Source: an uncultured Chlorobiales bacterium (lineage in GTDB: Bacteria > Bacteroidota > Chlorobiia > Chlorobiales > Chlorobiaceae). Taken from it: 64,000 nucleotides of DNA. The DNA is taken from NCBI GenBank assembly GCA_903929135.1, contig CAIYTH010000033.1:1-64000 (forward strand). The letters are read 5' to 3'. A program made the position numbers and the translations under genes. How positions within the stretch are numbered: the first letter of the stretch is position 1; each line of letters begins with the position of its first letter. Shown here piece after piece: positions 9,067-64,000 of the stretch. The notes beneath the pieces were generated by a model. The model did not search any database. It saw only the letters and a program-made list of their open reading frames with translations, and was not told the origin of the DNA.

Positions 9067-10802
9067 ATGTCCCAGGCTGAACCTCTCTTTTCAGGATTTC
9101 CTCCGGTCACCTACGACGGATGGAAATCGCGCGTTCTCGAAGAGCTCAAGGGTGCCGATTACGCGAAAATCGTCTGGAAAACCCCGGAAGGATTTACCAT
9201 GGAGCCATGGTATAATCGCCGGACCGCCCTGCCCTCCCCTTCCGTGCCGTTCGCTCGAAGCTCAAACCTCTGGAGGATCTGCGTGCAGATCCCTGCGTCG
9301 TCGCCTGAAACCGCGGCTGAGGCCGCACGGATAGCGATCGACGGCGGTGCGGACGCCATCGAATACCGCTTCTCCGACCCGGCCCAGGCCGGCCCGGAAG
9401 CACTGGCGTACCTCTTGAGCGCAATCGACCTGTCGAAGGTCGCCATCTACCTGTCCGGAGCGACCGGCGAGCTCCGTTCGCTTGCCGCAAACCTGCTCAA
9501 CGCCGCAGAGTGCCCATTCATCAAGGGCGCAATCCTTTCAGAATCCCCGGATGCCGCCGATGCGCTCGTCGCCATCCGTCCCGAAGGGTTCAGGACCCTT
9601 GCCGTCGATACCGGCCGGTTCCATGATGCCGGAGCGACCATCACCCAGGAGATCGCCTTCGCGCTTGCGGGGACCAGCGACCTCATCAGCCGTGCCACTG
9701 AATCCGGCATCACGGCGGAGAGGGTTGCCGCAGCCATCTCGGTGGTCTTCAGCGCCGGGACCAGCCATTTCCCCGAGCTCGCCAAACTCCGGGCCTTCAG
9801 GGCGATGTGGGCGCAGCTGCTCGCCGCCTATGGCGTGCCGGCCACGGAGTGCCCCGAACCTGAAATCTTCGTGCGCGCTTCCCGGCGTTCGGCTTCGGTG
9901 CTCGATCCGTACACCAACATCCTCCGCCTTTCGACTCAAGCCGTGTCGGCCATCCTCGGGGGATGCGACACGCTCCAGCTTTCATCGTTCGACCCGGGCG
10001 GCTCTGTCCCGTCCGACCTGGCCGGTCGGATCACGACGAACATCCATCATCTGCTCAGGGAAGAGTCGGGTCTCGACCGCGTCATCGATCCCGCTGCAGG
10101 CTCCTCCTATATCGACACCCTGACGGCCACGCTCTGCAGGGAAGCGTGGAAACTTTTCCAGCAGATCGAGGCCGCCGGGGGCCTCAGGCAGGCCGAAGCG
10201 AACGGTACGGTCGCATCCATGACCGCATCTGCGGCTGAGGCACAGAGAAAAGCCATCAACACCAGGAAGCGTTCGCTGATCGGCATCAACCGTTATGCGG
10301 TTTTGCCCTCCCCTGAGGTAACGGCGCTGTTGAAAGCCACCCCTGAGGCCGCCGCTCAAGCTCCGGAATTCGAGCAGCTCAGAGTGCGCGTACTCGCGCA
10401 TGTCGCCCGAACCGGCTCGGCACCTCTCGCGGAACTCTGGCTGCACGGCGACACGGTGAAATGCCTCCGGGTCGCGGCCTTTGCCGAGGAGTTCCTGCGC
10501 TGCGGGGGATTTGATGTGGCTCCATCCGCAACCATGCCCCTGGAAACCAGATCCTGCCGCTCCGTGCTTCAGGACGAACCCGACATCGTAGTGCTCTGCT
10601 GGACAGGCGAGGATGACCTGCAAGCTCTCCCGGCAATCCTCGGGACAATGCAGGAGCTCCGCAAGGAGACGGTCGTCGTCATGGCCGCCAAGCCTCCGGA
10701 AAACGCCGCCGACCTGATCAGGAACGGCCTGGACCAGTTCATCCACATGGGCAGCGACGCCTATGCCACCCTGCTTTCGCTCCAACACAAAACCGGTGTG
10801 TT

Positions 10803-10806
<4 letters not shown>
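9067..10806 (+). CDS. mutA: Methylmalonyl-CoA mutase small (beta) subunit
   Basis: 579 aa. The N-terminal [18 protein letters not shown] and the TIM-barrel core match MutA, the non-catalytic partner of the B12-dependent mutase that turns (R)-methylmalonyl-CoA into succinyl-CoA. The C-terminal region has the fold of a B12-binding domain but lacks the DxHxxG cobalt-ligand motif, as expected for this subunit. The frame is open upstream to 8998, but the sequence before MSQAEPLF does not look like the family, so the ATG at 9067 is preferred; no clear ribosome binding site helps. Its stop overlaps the mutB start by 4 nt (ATGA), a sign of translational coupling. Confidence 0.93.
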
Positions 10807-12940
<2,134 letters not shown>

Positions 12941-57698: not shown

Positions 57699-58116
57699 AC
57701 ATGAGGATGGTAAAATGATAATAATACGCAGTTCCGGTGAACAGCTGAACCTTATGCACTGAGGCCGGAAAAGCTGCTCTCCTTAAGATACATACAGCAG
57801 TTCCTCCTGCACCCCTTGATTATGCAACTGATCCGATAAAACTCCCAAAGATGCGCAAACCCCCGCCCTTCACCTCGGCAGGCAGGGCGATCATGGTTAT
57901 TCCGGAACATAACCGTACATTGGTGTAGAAATCAATTCTTCTCCGCACCGACCTCAGCAATGCATGCTGTCAACCGAAATTAACCTTTCCTGAGTTGCCG
58001 TACCGCGAATCGCGGCCCCATCAGACCTCCGAATTTCAAGTAGTAGCAGACAGAGAAGTGCGTTTGCCTTCCCTATGGTGTTATCCGATTTCCGAATCGT
58101 TAACCAAGGAGCAACC
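57699..58116. other. 418-bp gap upstream of aioBA
   Basis: No gene is evident on either strand. A perfect 13-bp palindrome CCGCGAATCGCGG (58003-58015) lies about 100 bp before the aioB start. I looked for a sigma-54 type GG-N10-GC promoter, used for arsenite oxidase genes in some proteobacteria, and saw no convincing one. The ribosome binding site AAGGAG precedes the aioB ATG. Confidence 0.4.
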
Positions 58117-58608
58117 ATGTCACCACTCAACCGCAGAGAATTCCTGCAGACCTCTTCCGCAAGCCTTGCACTGGCGGTTCTGGGCCTTTCCGGAAAAGCG
58201 GATGGCGCTGCCGCCAACAAGTACCCTTCGATCAGGATAGGCAACATCCGTGACCTCAAGACCGGGGAACCGGTCCAGTTCAACTATCCAGACAAATCCT
58301 CCCCTTGCAACGTGGTCATGCTGAATGGCAATGCTGTCGGCGGCATCGGTCCATTCAGCAACGTCGTCGCCTTTTCAGCCCTCTGCCCGCACATGGGTTG
58401 TCCCGTCAACTACAGCAACGGCCGCTTCGTGTGCGGTTGCCACTATTCGATGTTCGATGCGGCCAAAAACGGCCAGACCTACCAGGGCCTCGCTTCGCAA
58501 TGGCTGGCTCAGGTCTCGCTGCGGCTTGACAAGGCCAGCGGCAACATCTATGCGGAAGGGATCGAAGGGCTCGTCTACGGAAGGATCGGCAACCTGAACA
58601 TCAGCTGA
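58117..58608 (+). CDS. aioB: Arsenite oxidase small subunit, Rieske protein, Tat-exported
   Basis: 163 aa from ATG 58117, preceded by AAGGAG. The N-terminal Tat signal NRREFLQTSSASLALAVLG exports the folded AioBA pair. The Rieske 2Fe-2S motif is CPHMGCPVNYSNGRF followed by VCGCHYSMFD; both ligand pairs (Cys-His) and both disulfide Cys are present. The reading CGCHYSMFD is of the AioB type. It passes electrons from AioA to a periplasmic carrier. The frame extends upstream to 58075, which would bury the signal; the shorter start is better. Twelve nt before aioA. Confidence 0.93.
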   Translation: MSPLNRREFLQTSSASLALAVLGLSGKADGAAANKYPSIRIGNIRDLKTGEPVQFNYPDKSSPCNVVMLNGNAVGGIGPFSNVVAFSALCPHMGCPVNYSNGRFVCGCHYSMFDAAKNGQTYQGLASQWLAQVSLRLDKASGNIYAEGIEGLVYGRIGNLNIS

Positions 58609-58620
58609 GGAGATACGACC

Positions 58621-61182
58621 ATGTCACTATTCACCAGAAAAGAGAGCCTGCCGATACCGCCGAAAGACGCGGAACGCTACACGACCGTATGCCAGTACTG
58701 CAGCGCCGGTTGCGGCTACAACGTCTATGTCTGGCCCGTCGGCAGGAACGGCTCGGCAAAAAACAATGCGTTCGGCATCGACCTGTCGATGCAATCCCCC
58801 ATGCTCTCCGGGCACTCATACACGGAGACCATGCATAACGTCATCACCCGGAAAAACGGGATCAGCTACAACCTTGCCATAGTTCCGGCGAAAGAGTCGC
58901 GCATCAACAAAGGTAATTATTCCGTCCGTGGCGGTACCAACGCCATCGCCGCCTGGTCGGACACCGGCTATACTAAAAAACGCCTGAAGCAACCGCTCCT
59001 GAAAAAAGGAGACTCGTTCGCAGCCATCTCATGGACGGATGCCGTGGAAATCATAGCAACGCTCACCAAAGCCTCGATCGACAGATACGGGGCCGACAGC
59101 ATCGCCATGAAGTTCTACGACCACGGCAGTTCAGGCCTCGGCTTCGAAGACAACTGGGCCGCCGGCAAGCTGTTCCTCAGCGGCATCAGAACGAACCACC
59201 TCTCCATCCACAACCGCCCGGCATACAACTCCGAAGTATGGGGAACCAGGGAACGCGGCATGCATGAGCTCAACTACGACGTCGACGACGCAAGGCTTGC
59301 CGACACGGTCGTGCTCTGGGGAGCAAATGCCTATGAAGCCGCGACGATCCTCTACACCGAGCACATCATGCCCAACCTCCAGGGGGCTTCGATGGACGAG
59401 AAAAAGAGCGCTTTCGATACCGGTGAACCGGCCGCCGAAGGCCGCCTGATCGTCATAGACCCTAGGAAGAATGCATCCGTCACCGTCGCACAGGCGATCG
59501 CGGGCGGGCGAGTCCTGCATATCCGCCCCAACCTCGGCACGGACTGGATCCTCGCCAACGCCATCGCACGCATCGCCTGGGAGAACGGGTGGTACGACAA
59601 GGCGTTCCTCGAGAAACGCACCGATATGAAAACATTCGAGGAGTACAAGGCAAAGTCGCTTCAGCTCGCAAAACCACTCAACGACCTGCTTGCCGAAGCC
59701 GAAAAGATCACCGGTGTCAGCAGGAAGGAGATGGAACAGGCCGCCGAATGGATCGCGAAGCCTAAAAGCGGCGGATTCAGAGCCAGGACCCTGACCATCT
59801 ACGAAAAAGGCATCATCTGGAACATGAAAAACTACGACCAGGTGGCCGCCATCGCCCAGCTCAGCGTGCTGACCGCAAACATCGGCAGGCCGGGTACCGG
59901 ATGCGGCCGTGAGGGCGGGCATCAGGAAGGTTACGTCAGGCCCCCCGCCCCGACCCCTGGCTCGATCTATGCAGGAGGTCCGCCAAAAAACGTCGACAAA
60001 TTCCTGACCGGTGGCGGAGGCAAGATCTACTGGGTAGGTGCGACCGATCCCTACCTTTCCACTCCCAACAGCCAGTTCTTCAGGAAGGTCCTGAAAAAAA
60101 GAAGCGCCACCCTGCTCGACCACATCGATCATGGCGGAGTCCCCTCCGACCCGAAAGAGCTCGTCGCCAGGGTTCTCGACGCATTTGAAAAAACCGACGG
60201 GCTCTTCATGGTCGTGCAGGATATCTACATGACCCAAACCGGCAACGACGCCATGCTGATCCTTCCCGCTGCTGGATGGGGAGAAGCCGCAGACACTTCG
60301 ATCAATTGCCACAGCCGCCTCCTCAGGATCTACGACAAATTCATGGACGCACCCGGGGAAGCCCTGCCTGACTGGAAGATCCTGTCGATGGTCGGCATGA
60401 AGCTCAGGGAGCTTTACACCGCCGCAGGCAACAAGGAGATGGCCGACCGGTTCAGCGACATGGACTGGAAATCCGATGAAGAGGTTTTCCTTGCAGGTTC
60501 CCGCGAATTCGGCGACAACCGCGTTCCCGAAACCGAGGAGGCGAAGTTGTCTCCGGAGTGCTACAAGGGGGTCACGCACCAGATCCTGAGAAAACTGGGC
60601 AACACCGGCATCCAGACTCCCGTCCGCGTCGATCCCTCAACCGGAAAGCTCGTCGGAACCAAACGACGCTACAAATACAGCTTTGCGACAACGGACGGAC
60701 GCTTCAGGTGGTACGGCACCGACCCCTGGAGCGGTTATCCGCCGGAGGTAGCCAAATACGTCGGCAACCCGAAGTATCCTTACTGGTTCACCACGGGCCG
60801 GTCACAGCTTGTCTGGCAGACCATGTACCACGACAGGTACCTTCCGGAAAAGTACTTCGCCCTCCCGCTCCCCTATATCGAGGTGCACCCTGAAGATGCT
60901 GCGCATCTCGGAATCAGGGGCGGCGACATGGTGGAGGTGTTCAACGAGGAGGGCTCCAGCATCGCGCTGGTCTACGTCAACGACGCCTGCAAACCGGGAC
61001 TCGTCTTCGGAATCATGTACCATGCGAAAGGCTCCATGAACCACCTGACCTCCTCCTATACCGACCCGAAAACCACCATGCCCTGGTACAAGGGAACCAA
61101 AGTGGGAATCAGGCCATACCATGGAACCCCTGACGAGGCGATCAGGACAACAAGCCTCCTGCCCAACAACAACTTCTCGTAA
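58621..61182 (+). CDS. aioA: Arsenite oxidase large subunit (molybdopterin, 3Fe-4S)
   Basis: 853 aa, DMSO-reductase family. Cluster ligands C24, C27 and C31 (CQYCSAGC) with S101 (NYSVRGG) where other family members have a fourth Cys, the AioA hallmark that gives a 3Fe-4S cluster. The arsenite-site residues of characterised AioA (His195, Glu203, Arg419, His423) correspond to H197 and E205 (HNRPAYNSE) and R430 and H434 (GREGGHQEG). Oxidises arsenite to arsenate in the periplasm. Length is close to known enzymes (about 825-845). No aioX, aioS, aioR or cytochrome c gene is adjacent. Green sulfur bacterial aioA has been reported from genome surveys. Confidence 0.95.
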   Translation: MSLFTRKESLPIPPKDAERYTTVCQYCSAGCGYNVYVWPVGRNGSAKNNAFGIDLSMQSPMLSGHSYTETMHNVITRKNGISYNLAIVPAKESRINKGNYSVRGGTNAIAAWSDTGYTKKRLKQPLLKKGDSFAAISWTDAVEIIATLTKASIDRYGADSIAMKFYDHGSSGLGFEDNWAAGKLFLSGIRTNHLSIHNRPAYNSEVWGTRERGMHELNYDVDDARLADTVVLWGANAYEAATILYTEHIMPNLQGASMDEKKSAFDTGEPAAEGRLIVIDPRKNASVTVAQAIAGGRVLHIRPNLGTDWILANAIARIAWENGWYDKAFLEKRTDMKTFEEYKAKSLQLAKPLNDLLAEAEKITGVSRKEMEQAAEWIAKPKSGGFRARTLTIYEKGIIWNMKNYDQVAAIAQLSVLTANIGRPGTGCGREGGHQEGYVRPPAPTPGSIYAGGPPKNVDKFLTGGGGKIYWVGATDPYLSTPNSQFFRKVLKKRSATLLDHIDHGGVPSDPKELVARVLDAFEKTDGLFMVVQDIYMTQTGNDAMLILPAAGWGEAADTSINCHSRLLRIYDKFMDAPGEALPDWKILSMVGMKLRELYTAAGNKEMADRFSDMDWKSDEEVFLAGSREFGDNRVPETEEAKLSPECYKGVTHQILRKLGNTGIQTPVRVDPSTGKLVGTKRRYKYSFATTDGRFRWYGTDPWSGYPPEVAKYVGNPKYPYWFTTGRSQLVWQTMYHDRYLPEKYFALPLPYIEVHPEDAAHLGIRGGDMVEVFNEEGSSIALVYVNDACKPGLVFGIMYHAKGSMNHLTSSYTDPKTTMPWYKGTKVGIRPYHGTPDEAIRTTSLLPNNNFS

Positions 61183-61205
61183 CGGCACCACCTCCTCTTG
61201 AACAG

Positions 61206-61248
61206 AACAGTGAACCCCGGCTCATGGACCGAGCCGGGGTTCACTGTT
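61206..61248. terminator. Perfect 18-bp hairpin after aioA
   Basis: Perfect 18-bp arms AACAGTGAACCCCGGCTC and GAGCCGGGGTTCACTGTT around loop ATGGACC, ending in a short T run. It lies between the convergent aioA and dehydratase genes and probably ends both transcripts. Confidence 0.82.
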
Positions 61249-61294
61249 TCAGAGATGAGGGCATGGGCTCGATCGAGCATACCCGAAGCCAGCG

Positions 61295-62575
61295 TCAGGA
61301 AAGCATTTCAACGAAGGCGCGGACCCTGGTCAGCAACTGCCCGGAGGGCGGCCCGACCTGAAAACTGCCTTCAAGGCCGATCGACGGTATCCCCAGTTTG
61401 TGGAAATGGTCTCGCTGTATCTCCTGGTGCACGCCGGCGAAGGAGCAGCCGACATAGGTGTAAAAGAGGATGCCCTTTGCGCCGTAATGTTCGATCACCT
61501 GCTCCAGCGGCTTCAGGCGGTGGACCGGCGATCCTACGGTGTGCCCGCCGCTTCCGCCGAGAATGCGCGAGGCGATCGATTCCAGGGGAGTATCGGCCTC
61601 AGGCAGGTCGTGCGACCATGAATTGGGAGTATACCAGGCGAGGATCGCACCTCCGCAATCGTCCACGGTCTTGTACACGCCGAACTCCTGGCCTCGCCCT
61701 CCGATCCATGCGAGCGGAACGACCTTGCCGAGCGGTGACGGGACATGGTCCGCCACCTTCATCTCTTCGATGAGCTGGTCCAGGGCAGCTTCATACTCAT
61801 CCGGCTTGCCGAAATAGTGGCCGCTCCCCATCAGCAGGAACATGGTCGCCAGGCTCTTGATGTAGAGCGGATTCTCCTTGCGCAGCTCGAAGATATCCCG
61901 GACCTTGCCAAGAATGCGGTTTGTCCGCTTGATTTCGTACGCCACGCGCTCCTCGTCCACCGGCTTGCCGGTAAGGCGGATCGCCACATCGGCGAGTTCG
62001 TCAGCGAGGAATCGGATATGCTCCGCTAGCCGCACCGGATCGTTGTCGGTCGGCCGGTTGACCGTCTCGATCCGATAGATCGTATAGCCTTCGTCCGCGA
62101 TCAGCTCCCAGGCGAGATTGAGCGGCTCGCACAGGCTGTTGAACACGACAAGGTCCTTGACCGTATGGTTGCGGCGCAGATACCACTCGCCCACCACCGA
62201 CGCCACCATCGAGCAGGTCTCCTTGGGAAACTGGAAGTAGTCCTCGGCAACCGACATGGCATCGCTCGAACCGAGCCGGCCGAGTTCCGTCAGCGAGATC
62301 GGCACGATGTCCATGGCATACAGCAGCGGCGCTTCCCAGAGCCCCATGACCCAGGCCGAGCGACCGCCGTTCCTGGCATGCTCCTCGGCAAACCCGACAT
62401 AGTTCAGGGCCAGGTCATAAATCCTGGCGACTGCCGGGGAGTAGCTGTGATCCTTTTTGCTCTGCTCGATATACTCGAGCTGGCTCTGGAGCTCCTGCCG
62501 GGTCGAGATTCCGGTATCCGGGGCGATAGAGGTACCCGGCTCGACGAAATTGATTTCAGTACCGTTCAGCGACAT
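61295..62575 (-). CDS. 2-hydroxyacyl-CoA dehydratase / benzoyl-CoA reductase family subunit
   Basis: 426 aa of the HgdB/HgdC/BcrB superfamily, which binds a 4Fe-4S (or double-cubane) cluster between two subunits. Segments AWVMGLWEAPLLYAMDIVPI, FPKETCSMVAS, FNSLCEPLNLAWEL, DDCGGAILAWYT and GILFYTYVGCSFAG carry candidate ligands C121, C149, C307 and C377. No CoA-binding motif can be assigned by eye, so substrate is open: a 2-hydroxyacyl-CoA, an aromatic CoA, or a small molecule as in the double-cubane cluster proteins. The start is 1 nt after the stop of the fused activase gene, so the two are coupled. Confidence 0.82.
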   Translation of the reverse strand: MSLNGTEINFVEPGTSIAPDTGISTRQELQSQLEYIEQSKKDHSYSPAVARIYDLALNYVGFAEEHARNGGRSAWVMGLWEAPLLYAMDIVPISLTELGRLGSSDAMSVAEDYFQFPKETCSMVASVVGEWYLRRNHTVKDLVVFNSLCEPLNLAWELIADEGYTIYRIETVNRPTDNDPVRLAEHIRFLADELADVAIRLTGKPVDEERVAYEIKRTNRILGKVRDIFELRKENPLYIKSLATMFLLMGSGHYFGKPDEYEAALDQLIEEMKVADHVPSPLGKVVPLAWIGGRGQEFGVYKTVDDCGGAILAWYTPNSWSHDLPEADTPLESIASRILGGSGGHTVGSPVHRLKPLEQVIEHYGAKGILFYTYVGCSFAGVHQEIQRDHFHKLGIPSIGLEGSFQVGPPSGQLLTRVRAFVEMLS

Positions 62576-62576
62576 C

Positions 62577-64000
62577 TCAAATCTCCTGCTTTTCTTTTAA
62601 CACTTCGACAAAGGCGTCAAGGCGGGTTTTGATCTGGCCGGTGTCGCCGAGGGAATAATCGCTCGCCAGCTCGAGGACGGGAAGCTCCATCTCCTGGAAA
62701 CGGCGGACGAACTTGTTCTTGGCCATGCCGTAGCAGGGGCAGAACTTGAGGTAGAAGTAAATCACCCCCTGAACCCGATATTCGGTCGCCAGCTGAGCCG
62801 AGAAATCGATCCGTTTGCCCAGCGGCGTCTGCCGGGCGCAGGGCGCCTGGTCGAGATATGCATTGGCAAGCGCCTGCCATGGATCGATCTTTTCATCGGT
62901 GTCGTGGTAGAACGGCTTGAGGCCCGAGCAGTGGTCTTCCACGACAATCCGCGCACCGATCTCCTCTTCGATCAGGTCCAGCAGGCGACGGTCTCCTTCA
63001 GCCACGATACCGCCTGCCATCATGAGGCGCAACGGAGCCGGGCCGGTGTCCGGAGTGCCCGAAAGCCTCAGGTAGACATCTTCAAGAAGCACGAGCTGCT
63101 CTTCGGGCTGGAGGGTATAAAAAGCTTTGGTGATTTCCAGGAAATCGCGGCCGCTCAGTGGCGGATTGTCGCGCTTGCGCAGCGCCGAGATGTCGCGGAT
63201 CAGGCTCCGGGTCCGGTTGTAGAGCTGAATCTGCTCGGACAACTCATCATCGGTGACCAGTTTGCCGGTGAGCCTGGCAAGGTCCTTCCGGAAATGCATG
63301 ATCTCCTGCCGGAAGAACTTCCTCCCCGCTTCCCTGCCGCCATCGCGCGGCACGACATAGCCCAGCGAAGGCACAAAAAACCTGTCGATGGCCTCTGCGG
63401 CCGCCTTCATCGAGTCGCAGGAGTAGAAGGTCACGACCTGGTCGAGCCCGTCATGCAGCGGATCCTTTTCTGCAAAATGCCCCAGCACGCTCTTGGTGAA
63501 GTCGCAGAACACGCTTTTGGTGATCAGCTCCCCACGGGAAACGACCTCAGGCTCGCCGCACTTCAGGATGCGTGTATGCGCCGCACCCGAGGCGGCAAGC
63601 AGTTCGATCGGCGTGTAGTTGCACAGATGCCCGACTTTCTTCACATCGGTGCGCTCGATGAACGACTTTTCGGCTTCCGAGGTGCGCCCGATGATTTCGG
63701 TGATGTCCGCTTTGATGATCGCATCGTATTCGTCGGGAAGCTTGCGCTCCTCGGCAAAGAAACGCTGGGCATACACCGCAGCCCCGAGCGCACCGGCATA
63801 GACCGGATCGAGCCTGAACGGCTTGATCGGCAGACCGATCAGATCTTCGAGCGCTTTTTTCATACCGACGTTGTTGGAAACGCCGCCGGTGAACACCAGA
63901 TCCCCTTCGAGCGGAATCTTGCTGACCAGGTTCTTGACGCGCCGCGCCGAAGCATAGTGCAGGCCTGCAGCGATGGCTTCCCGGGTCTCGCCCCGCGCCC
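62577..64000 (-). CDS. Fused BadF-type activase and 2-hydroxyacyl-CoA dehydratase-like protein (5' part outside the window)
   Basis: Partial: the gene enters from beyond 64000 and the in-window part is about 474 residues. The visible upstream end is the C-terminus of a BadF/BadG/BcrA/BcrD ATPase (AIAAGLHYASARRVKNLVSK, then LVFTGGVSNNVGMKKALEDL and AGALGAAVYAQRF). After a linker comes an HgdB-like region: VGHLCNYTPIELLAASG, SVFCDFTKSVLGHF, FYSCDSMKAAAEA, MMAGGIVAEGDRRLLDLIEE, VEDHCSGLKPFYHD and YLKFCPCYGMAKNKFV, all with Cys positions typical of the dehydratase family. The ATPase normally fires electrons into the dehydratase cluster at the cost of ATP. One chain here carries both functions. 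Confidence 0.85.
   Translation of the reverse strand, partial: ARGETREAIAAGLHYASARRVKNLVSKIPLEGDLVFTGGVSNNVGMKKALEDLIGLPIKPFRLDPVYAGALGAAVYAQRFFAEERKLPDEYDAIIKADITEIIGRTSEAEKSFIERTDVKKVGHLCNYTPIELLAASGAAHTRILKCGEPEVVSRGELITKSVFCDFTKSVLGHFAEKDPLHDGLDQVVTFYSCDSMKAAAEAIDRFFVPSLGYVVPRDGGREAGRKFFRQEIMHFRKDLARLTGKLVTDDELSEQIQLYNRTRSLIRDISALRKRDNPPLSGRDFLEITKAFYTLQPEEQLVLLEDVYLRLSGTPDTGPAPLRLMMAGGIVAEGDRRLLDLIEEEIGARIVVEDHCSGLKPFYHDTDEKIDPWQALANAYLDQAPCARQTPLGKRIDFSAQLATEYRVQGVIYFYLKFCPCYGMAKNKFVRRFQEMELPVLELASDYSLGDTGQIKTRLDAFVEVLKEKQEI

Follow-up and report, generated by a model that had tools for sequence, protein, structure and literature searches.

A rare three-gene operon of the benzoyl-CoA reductase superfamily in Chlorobiaceae whose gene neighbours in relatives point to organosulfur compounds

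A three-gene operon in a draft Chlorobiaceae genome encodes a system of the BCR/HAD/DCCP superfamily that is real, rare and patchy in distribution and that is not filed as benzoyl-CoA reductase (BCR), dehydratase (HAD) or double-cubane cluster protein (DCCP). We propose, with a probability of about 0.5, that it is an ATP-dependent reductase helping to release sulfur from organosulfur compounds via a double-cubane relay, with a substrate that is probably no usual acyl-CoA ester. The operon lies partly in the window, by which we mean the whole 64,000-nucleotide stretch of DNA analyzed, which comes from a 2.14-Mb draft genome that is 92% complete. The contig (CAIYTH010000033.1, 96,989 bp) extends past the window and completes the operon, whose genes are as follows.

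61295..62575, minus strand: partner, probable catalytic subunit, 426 aa (ORF and Pfam HGD-D, PF06050; BzdO-type position)
62577..64586, minus strand, with the window ending at 64000: activase-HGD-D fusion, 669 aa (ORF and Pfam)
64583-65452, minus strand, same contig outside the window: separate activase, 289 aa (ORF, contig read past 64000)

Transcription runs from the 289-aa activase through the fusion to the partner, with the activase and fusion genes overlapping by 4 nt and the fusion and partner genes separated by 1 nt. The first-pass annotation had described the 426-aa frame, this gap and a second chain, and all are confirmed by ORFs and Pfam, the second chain entering at 62577 on the minus strand. 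It had further read the second chain as an activase continuing into an HgdB-like, Cys-rich domain. The completed fusion bears this out, matching BcrAD_BadFG with 198 bits (residues 21-273) and HGD-D with 260 bits (322-663), which gives a layout of activase (about 1-285) followed by HGD-D (about 310-663). The partner matches HGD-D (PF06050) with 144 bits, and all three matches are far over their cut-offs. Extension of the contig beyond 64000, as the annotation had advised, yielded the full fusion and the separate activase. The chain order is kept at eight Chlorobiaceae loci, the window's locus among them, which excludes chance. A search of the window's genome for further HGD-D or full-length BcrAD_BadFG proteins found none. 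Foreign origin of the operon by composition was rejected (GC 0.59-0.61 compared with 0.58 for the window).

Cluster ligands were compared in an alignment of the new proteins with BzdNO, with BcrCB-, MbdNO- and BadDE-like pairs taken from genomes of Aromatoleum and Rhodovulum, with DCCP and with HadBC; the BzdO reference was identified via a full-length PDB match and the other reference pairs were named by resemblance. Six cysteines of the fused HGD-D half (C322, C361, C390, C553, C583 and C616) are present in all 11 fusions compared. They align with BzdN and DCCP, the only characterized reference relay chains in which the six double-cubane cysteines are complete. BzdN uses its six cysteines to hold an [8Fe-9S] double cubane that acts as electron relay (PMC11971306, a 2025 structure paper), and the fused half is predicted to be a double-cubane subunit of the same cluster type. 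The earlier description of this half as dehydratase-like is refined here to the double-cubane relay type. In the partner, C121, C149 and C377 correspond exactly to the three BzdO ligands and are found in 12/12 orthologues. BzdO binds a [4Fe-4S] cluster via Cys95, Cys128 and Cys380, with water at the open iron, and benzoyl-CoA is bound (PMC11971306); an open [4Fe-4S] cluster is accordingly predicted for the partner. C307 was rejected as a further ligand, being S, L or M outside Chlorobiaceae. The activase cysteines of the fusion, C145 and C184, are invariant across 13 orthologues, and the 289-aa activase carries NDKC and SSQC motifs as in the fusion, giving two cluster cysteines per activase module. 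The system therefore pairs one relay-type and one catalytic-type chain with two activase modules.

Two tyrosines of the CoA-ester site have been lost from the partner. In BzdO, Tyr97 and Tyr298 hydrogen-bond the thioester oxygen of the CoA ester, and both positions are tyrosine in 6/6 CoA-type catalytic subunits (two BzdO, BcrB, MbdO, BadE and HadB). The alignment shows tyrosine at these positions in 0/12 partner orthologues; conserved CoA-site residues had been named in the first-pass annotation as evidence against an undescribed system. The position of BzdO Trp46, a residue that helps to occupy the space left by the missing half-cluster, is tryptophan in 11/12 partners (W75 here). BzdO Glu65 aligns to T, N or Y at partner position 96, with E or D at position 97 in all, and a one-residue shift is possible.

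A close parallel in overall plan is class I benzoyl-CoA reductase, BzdNOPQ (BzdNO, PDB 8s02), which likewise has two activase modules, a six-cysteine relay and a catalytic subunit with a three-cysteine open [4Fe-4S] cluster. It differs in that one activase of the operon is fused to the relay subunit, that the partner has neither CoA-contact tyrosine and is about 16% identical to BzdO in structure alignment, and that the phototroph loci hold no recognized aromatic-degradation genes. The shared four-module layout, together with the acidic residue at partner position 97 if it does match Glu65, would suit a CoA-ester enzyme, that is, a divergent relative of class I benzoyl-CoA reductase or 2-hydroxyacyl-CoA dehydratase with an aromatic or alicyclic acyl-CoA as its substrate. 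We regard such an enzyme as unlikely in view of the tyrosine positions lost from every partner, of the NCBIfam equivalog cut-offs for BzdN, BcrC and HadC, which are missed by wide margins, and of the surroundings of the Chlorobiaceae copies, where no CoA ligase or beta-oxidation genes were recognized.

A 45-row tree splits relay-type from catalytic-type chains (95/85) and places the partners in a clade of their own (100/100) outside the CoA-type catalytic clade (100/99), on long branches. Their nearest neighbours are unfused Chlorobiaceae chains of 459-486 aa (93/80). Placement in a characterized clade, which had been named beforehand as a counter-argument, is rejected by the AU test for partner plus HadB (p 0.0097) and for partner plus MbdO/BadE (p 0.0074). 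The grouping with BzdO is not rejected (p 0.069), and this, too, counts for a CoA-ester enzyme. The 2-hydroxyacyl-CoA dehydratases (HadBC, HgdAB) share the HGD-D fold, the activase partner and a three-cysteine catalytic chain with the operon. HadC, in contrast, does not have the full six-cysteine set, and HadB retains the CoA-site tyrosines that the partner has lost. Domains, residues and tree together uphold the initial assignment to an ATP-driven system of the HgdBC/BcrBC/double-cubane superfamily, whose substrate the annotation had left open.

The operon proteins stay below the NCBIfam cut-off for each of the named HGD-D families. The highest HGD-D-family score of the fused half is to the double-cubane model NF040772 (fusion 207.9 bits, partner 68.9 bits, both below the cut-off of 350 bits). 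An AlphaFold model of the partner (pLDDT 78, pTM 0.82) has DCCP, HAD or BCR subunits as all of its best 20 PDB matches, with DCCP at the top (TM 0.77, 18% identity); the fusion model has a pTM of 0.44, and structural claims were made without it. DCCP with DCCP-R (PDB 6eno, 7yyl) resembles the operon in the six-cysteine set of the fused domain, in the apparent lack of a CoA ester and as the partner's best match in sequence and structure. The physiological substrate of DCCP members is itself not clear (PMC11971306). These matches, and the absence of sulfur neighbours from the window's genome, could reflect a DCCP-like reductase of a small non-CoA substrate unrelated to sulfur, next to which the sulfur genes of relatives would be incidental. 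DCCP, however, is a homodimer with six cysteines and a double cubane in each identical chain, whereas the operon has two unlike chains with six and three ligands. Both chains fall below the model's cut-off, and sulfur neighbours are seen repeatedly, in two different phyla; we find this reading improbable.

By analogy with BCR and DCCP, the proposed reductase may work as follows. Reduced ferredoxin would charge a [4Fe-4S] cluster common to a two-chain activase composed of the separate activase and the activase half of the fusion. ATP hydrolysis would then push single electrons onto the [8Fe-9S] double cubane carried by the HGD-D half of the fusion, from which they would reach the 426-aa partner's open [4Fe-4S] cluster, where the substrate would be reduced. 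Fusion of one activase to the relay subunit may fix part of the docking geometry. Across the family, the substrate would most likely be an organosulfur compound such as a sulfonate, with the C-S bond cleaved reductively and the sulfur assimilated. An invariant arginine, Arg294, is a candidate residue for an anion pocket in the fusion-partner complex.

The neighbourhoods of the operon in relatives point to organosulfur compounds. A gene for an SsuA-like (sulfonate-type) binding protein lies less than 8 kb from the operon in seven of the nine Chlorobiaceae carriers, at distances of 0.4-7.8 kb, while chance coverage is 0.8-6.5% per genome in those seven. This corresponds to P = 2e-11 under the assumption of independent copies, an assumption that is true only in part. 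SsuA-type binding proteins also serve other anions. An identity of the SsuA-like proteins with Sao was considered and rejected, as the SaoX model match was weak (50 bits with a cut-off of 300) and the Sao literature consisted of a selenoprotein list only. In the SsuA-linked genomes the operon often adjoins a nitrogenase-like (Nfl) HDK and radical SAM gene set as well. At one locus (L030), a single-strand run comprises nitrogenase-like D/K, radical SAM, PNPO-like and nitroreductase genes, the operon, and flavin-reductase-like, porin and SsuA/SsuC/SsuB genes, with the nitroreductase gene 6 bp upstream and the flavin-reductase-like gene 21 bp downstream of the operon. Across Chlorobiaceae, close Nfl genes are found in 7/9 operon carriers and 16/77 non-carriers (p 0.001), and the radical SAM protein also co-occurs with the operon (p 0.0006), both values being uncorrected for kinship.

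At four Chlorobiaceae loci and in Rhodovulum the operon is physically linked with Nfl HDK as well as radical SAM genes, which would also fit a system without a substrate of its own that serves another enzyme, such as one of these nitrogenase-like or radical SAM neighbours, by ATP-driven electron delivery or by maturation. Activase-type proteins are indeed also known as methanogenesis marker proteins (TIGR03286 model match). We consider such a helper role very unlikely: the operon occurs without close Nfl genes in the window's genome (G000), in G310 and in Aromatoleum, 16/23 Nfl genomes have no operon, and isethionate reductase (Isr) functions in R. capsulatus and R. sphaeroides with isrBHDK and ssuCAB (PMC11423573). 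Close NflD proteins occur in 23/86 Chlorobiaceae genomes, and Isr-like HDK and radical SAM sets are seen at L034:15312-18934, L029, L032 and L090. The phyla listed for Isr do not include this lineage (PMC11423573). Rhodobacterales Nfl copies are only 37% identical to those of Chlorobiaceae, and the substrate may differ.

The most telling neighbourhood is that of Rhodovulum strictum. Its operon is followed by rhodanese, cysteine-synthase-type, serine-acetyltransferase-type, SrpI encapsulin shell and SufS-type genes and, farther away, sulfate-type transporter genes; the other side holds SsuABC, a luciferase-type monooxygenase, and radical SAM and nitrogenase-like (Isr-like) HDK genes. This gene content is that of an island of Rhodobacter capsulatus whose induction on isethionate reaches as much as 5,000-fold and whose isrBHDK and ssuCAB genes are needed for growth on that compound (PMC11423573). 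IsrBHDK with SsuCAB resembles the operon in neighbourhood and probably in theme, obtaining sulfur anaerobically from a sulfonate at the expense of ATP, but the enzyme is nitrogenase-like and non-homologous to the operon, a neighbour in relatives that was not found in the window's genome. R. capsulatus assimilates isethionate with no such three-gene operon among the induced genes listed (PMC11423573), which makes the operon of Rhodovulum an addition to the set. The genes directly adjoining the operon in R. strictum (L104:7250-12425) include a type 2A (SrpI-like) encapsulin shell along with SufS-, CysE- and CysK-type and rhodanese genes. In Rhodobacter viridis, a PLP enzyme of Cys/Met metabolism lies near the operon.

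Other carriers weigh against the organosulfur reading. In Aromatoleum, the conserved neighbours are an adjacent 341-aa gene for an AraC-type regulator, a MalT-like regulator of 870-890 aa and an acyl-CoA-ligase-like gene; several of the neighbours, the two regulators among them, were named by eye. Genes of acyl-CoA metabolism border the operon in two of the three Aromatoleum species, with a molybdopterin oxidoreductase, a hydratase/dehydrogenase-like fusion and a thiolase-like gene directly downstream. These neighbours keep a CoA-ester substrate alive there. One Chlorobiaceae relative (G252) also has no sulfur neighbourhood. The window's genome is a further such case: at its 92% completeness, no SsuA-like gene, close Nfl gene or matching radical SAM gene was detected, NflD matches being only distant (24-25% identity). 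The sulfur partners may be hidden in the missing 8%, the compound may enter otherwise, or the sulfur link may not be the core function. Use of the operon for organosulfur compounds in this genome we infer by orthology. Chlorobiaceae live with sulfide; a need for organic sulfur could be argued, speculatively, from sulfide-poor habitats.

In the window the operon instead adjoins arsenite oxidase genes, separated from them by an inverted repeat.

58075-61182, convergent with the operon: aioB-aioA, arsenite oxidase small (Rieske) and large subunits (both over NCBIfam cut-offs)
61205..61249, between the convergent arsenite oxidase and partner genes: 19-bp perfect inverted repeat (RNA fold)

The repeat folds as RNA with -57.1 kcal/mol (z = -7.0) and is likely a two-way terminator dividing the operon from aioBA. 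A functional link to arsenic was rejected, given the convergent orientation, the strong hairpin and the lack of aioBA next to the operon in the further carriers inspected. An Rfam scan over 9 kb gave only a sub-threshold miRNA match on the hairpin, taken as chance. Beyond 64000, where the first-pass annotation had suggested looking for an ordinary catabolic operon, none follows. An Hcp-type gene (type VI secretion tube, TIGR03344) is present at L003:7225-7710, equivalent to window positions 67225-67710, with no other secretion genes recognized among the few neighbours scanned.

The partner is found in 9/86 Chlorobiaceae genomes. The system is not restricted to green sulfur bacteria, further carriers being Aromatoleum toluclasticum, A. 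diolicum, A. toluolicum, Rhodovulum strictum and Rhodobacter viridis. When 397 Rhodovulum-family genomes were surveyed, R. strictum was the sole carrier, indicating that the operon is rare.

A benzoyl-CoA-reductase-like enzyme in organosulfur assimilation was not reported in the open-access literature searched. More tentatively, and at somewhat less than even odds, the family may represent a second class of ATP-driven metalloenzyme, independent of nitrogenase, that cleaves organosulfur compounds reductively under anaerobic conditions, a BCR architecture minus the CoA-ester site, present in phototrophs and with unfused sister sets amplified as one relay and several catalytic subunits. If so, the superfamily that breaks aromaticity by double-cubane clusters would also feed sulfur assimilation with no CoA handle, giving the double-cubane superfamily a testable non-CoA role. 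Lake green sulfur bacteria would gain an anaerobic route to organic sulfur, one that adds to the Xsc, IslAB and nitrogenase-like Isr enzymes.

The unfused sets of other Chlorobiaceae (L084:1-14642; L086:977-12954; L088:2729-16784; L091:9161-16846) consist of an activase and two HGD-D proteins (392-417 aa and 459-486 aa), interspersed with SsuABC genes and porins. They likewise have no CoA-site tyrosines. Several combine one relay-type chain with at least two catalytic-type chains, possibly forming an interchangeable-catalyst system. In one Chlorobiaceae genome, two tandem partner copies (L035:8491-9765 and 9989-11266) follow a single fusion gene, which suggests that different catalytic chains are served by one electron source.
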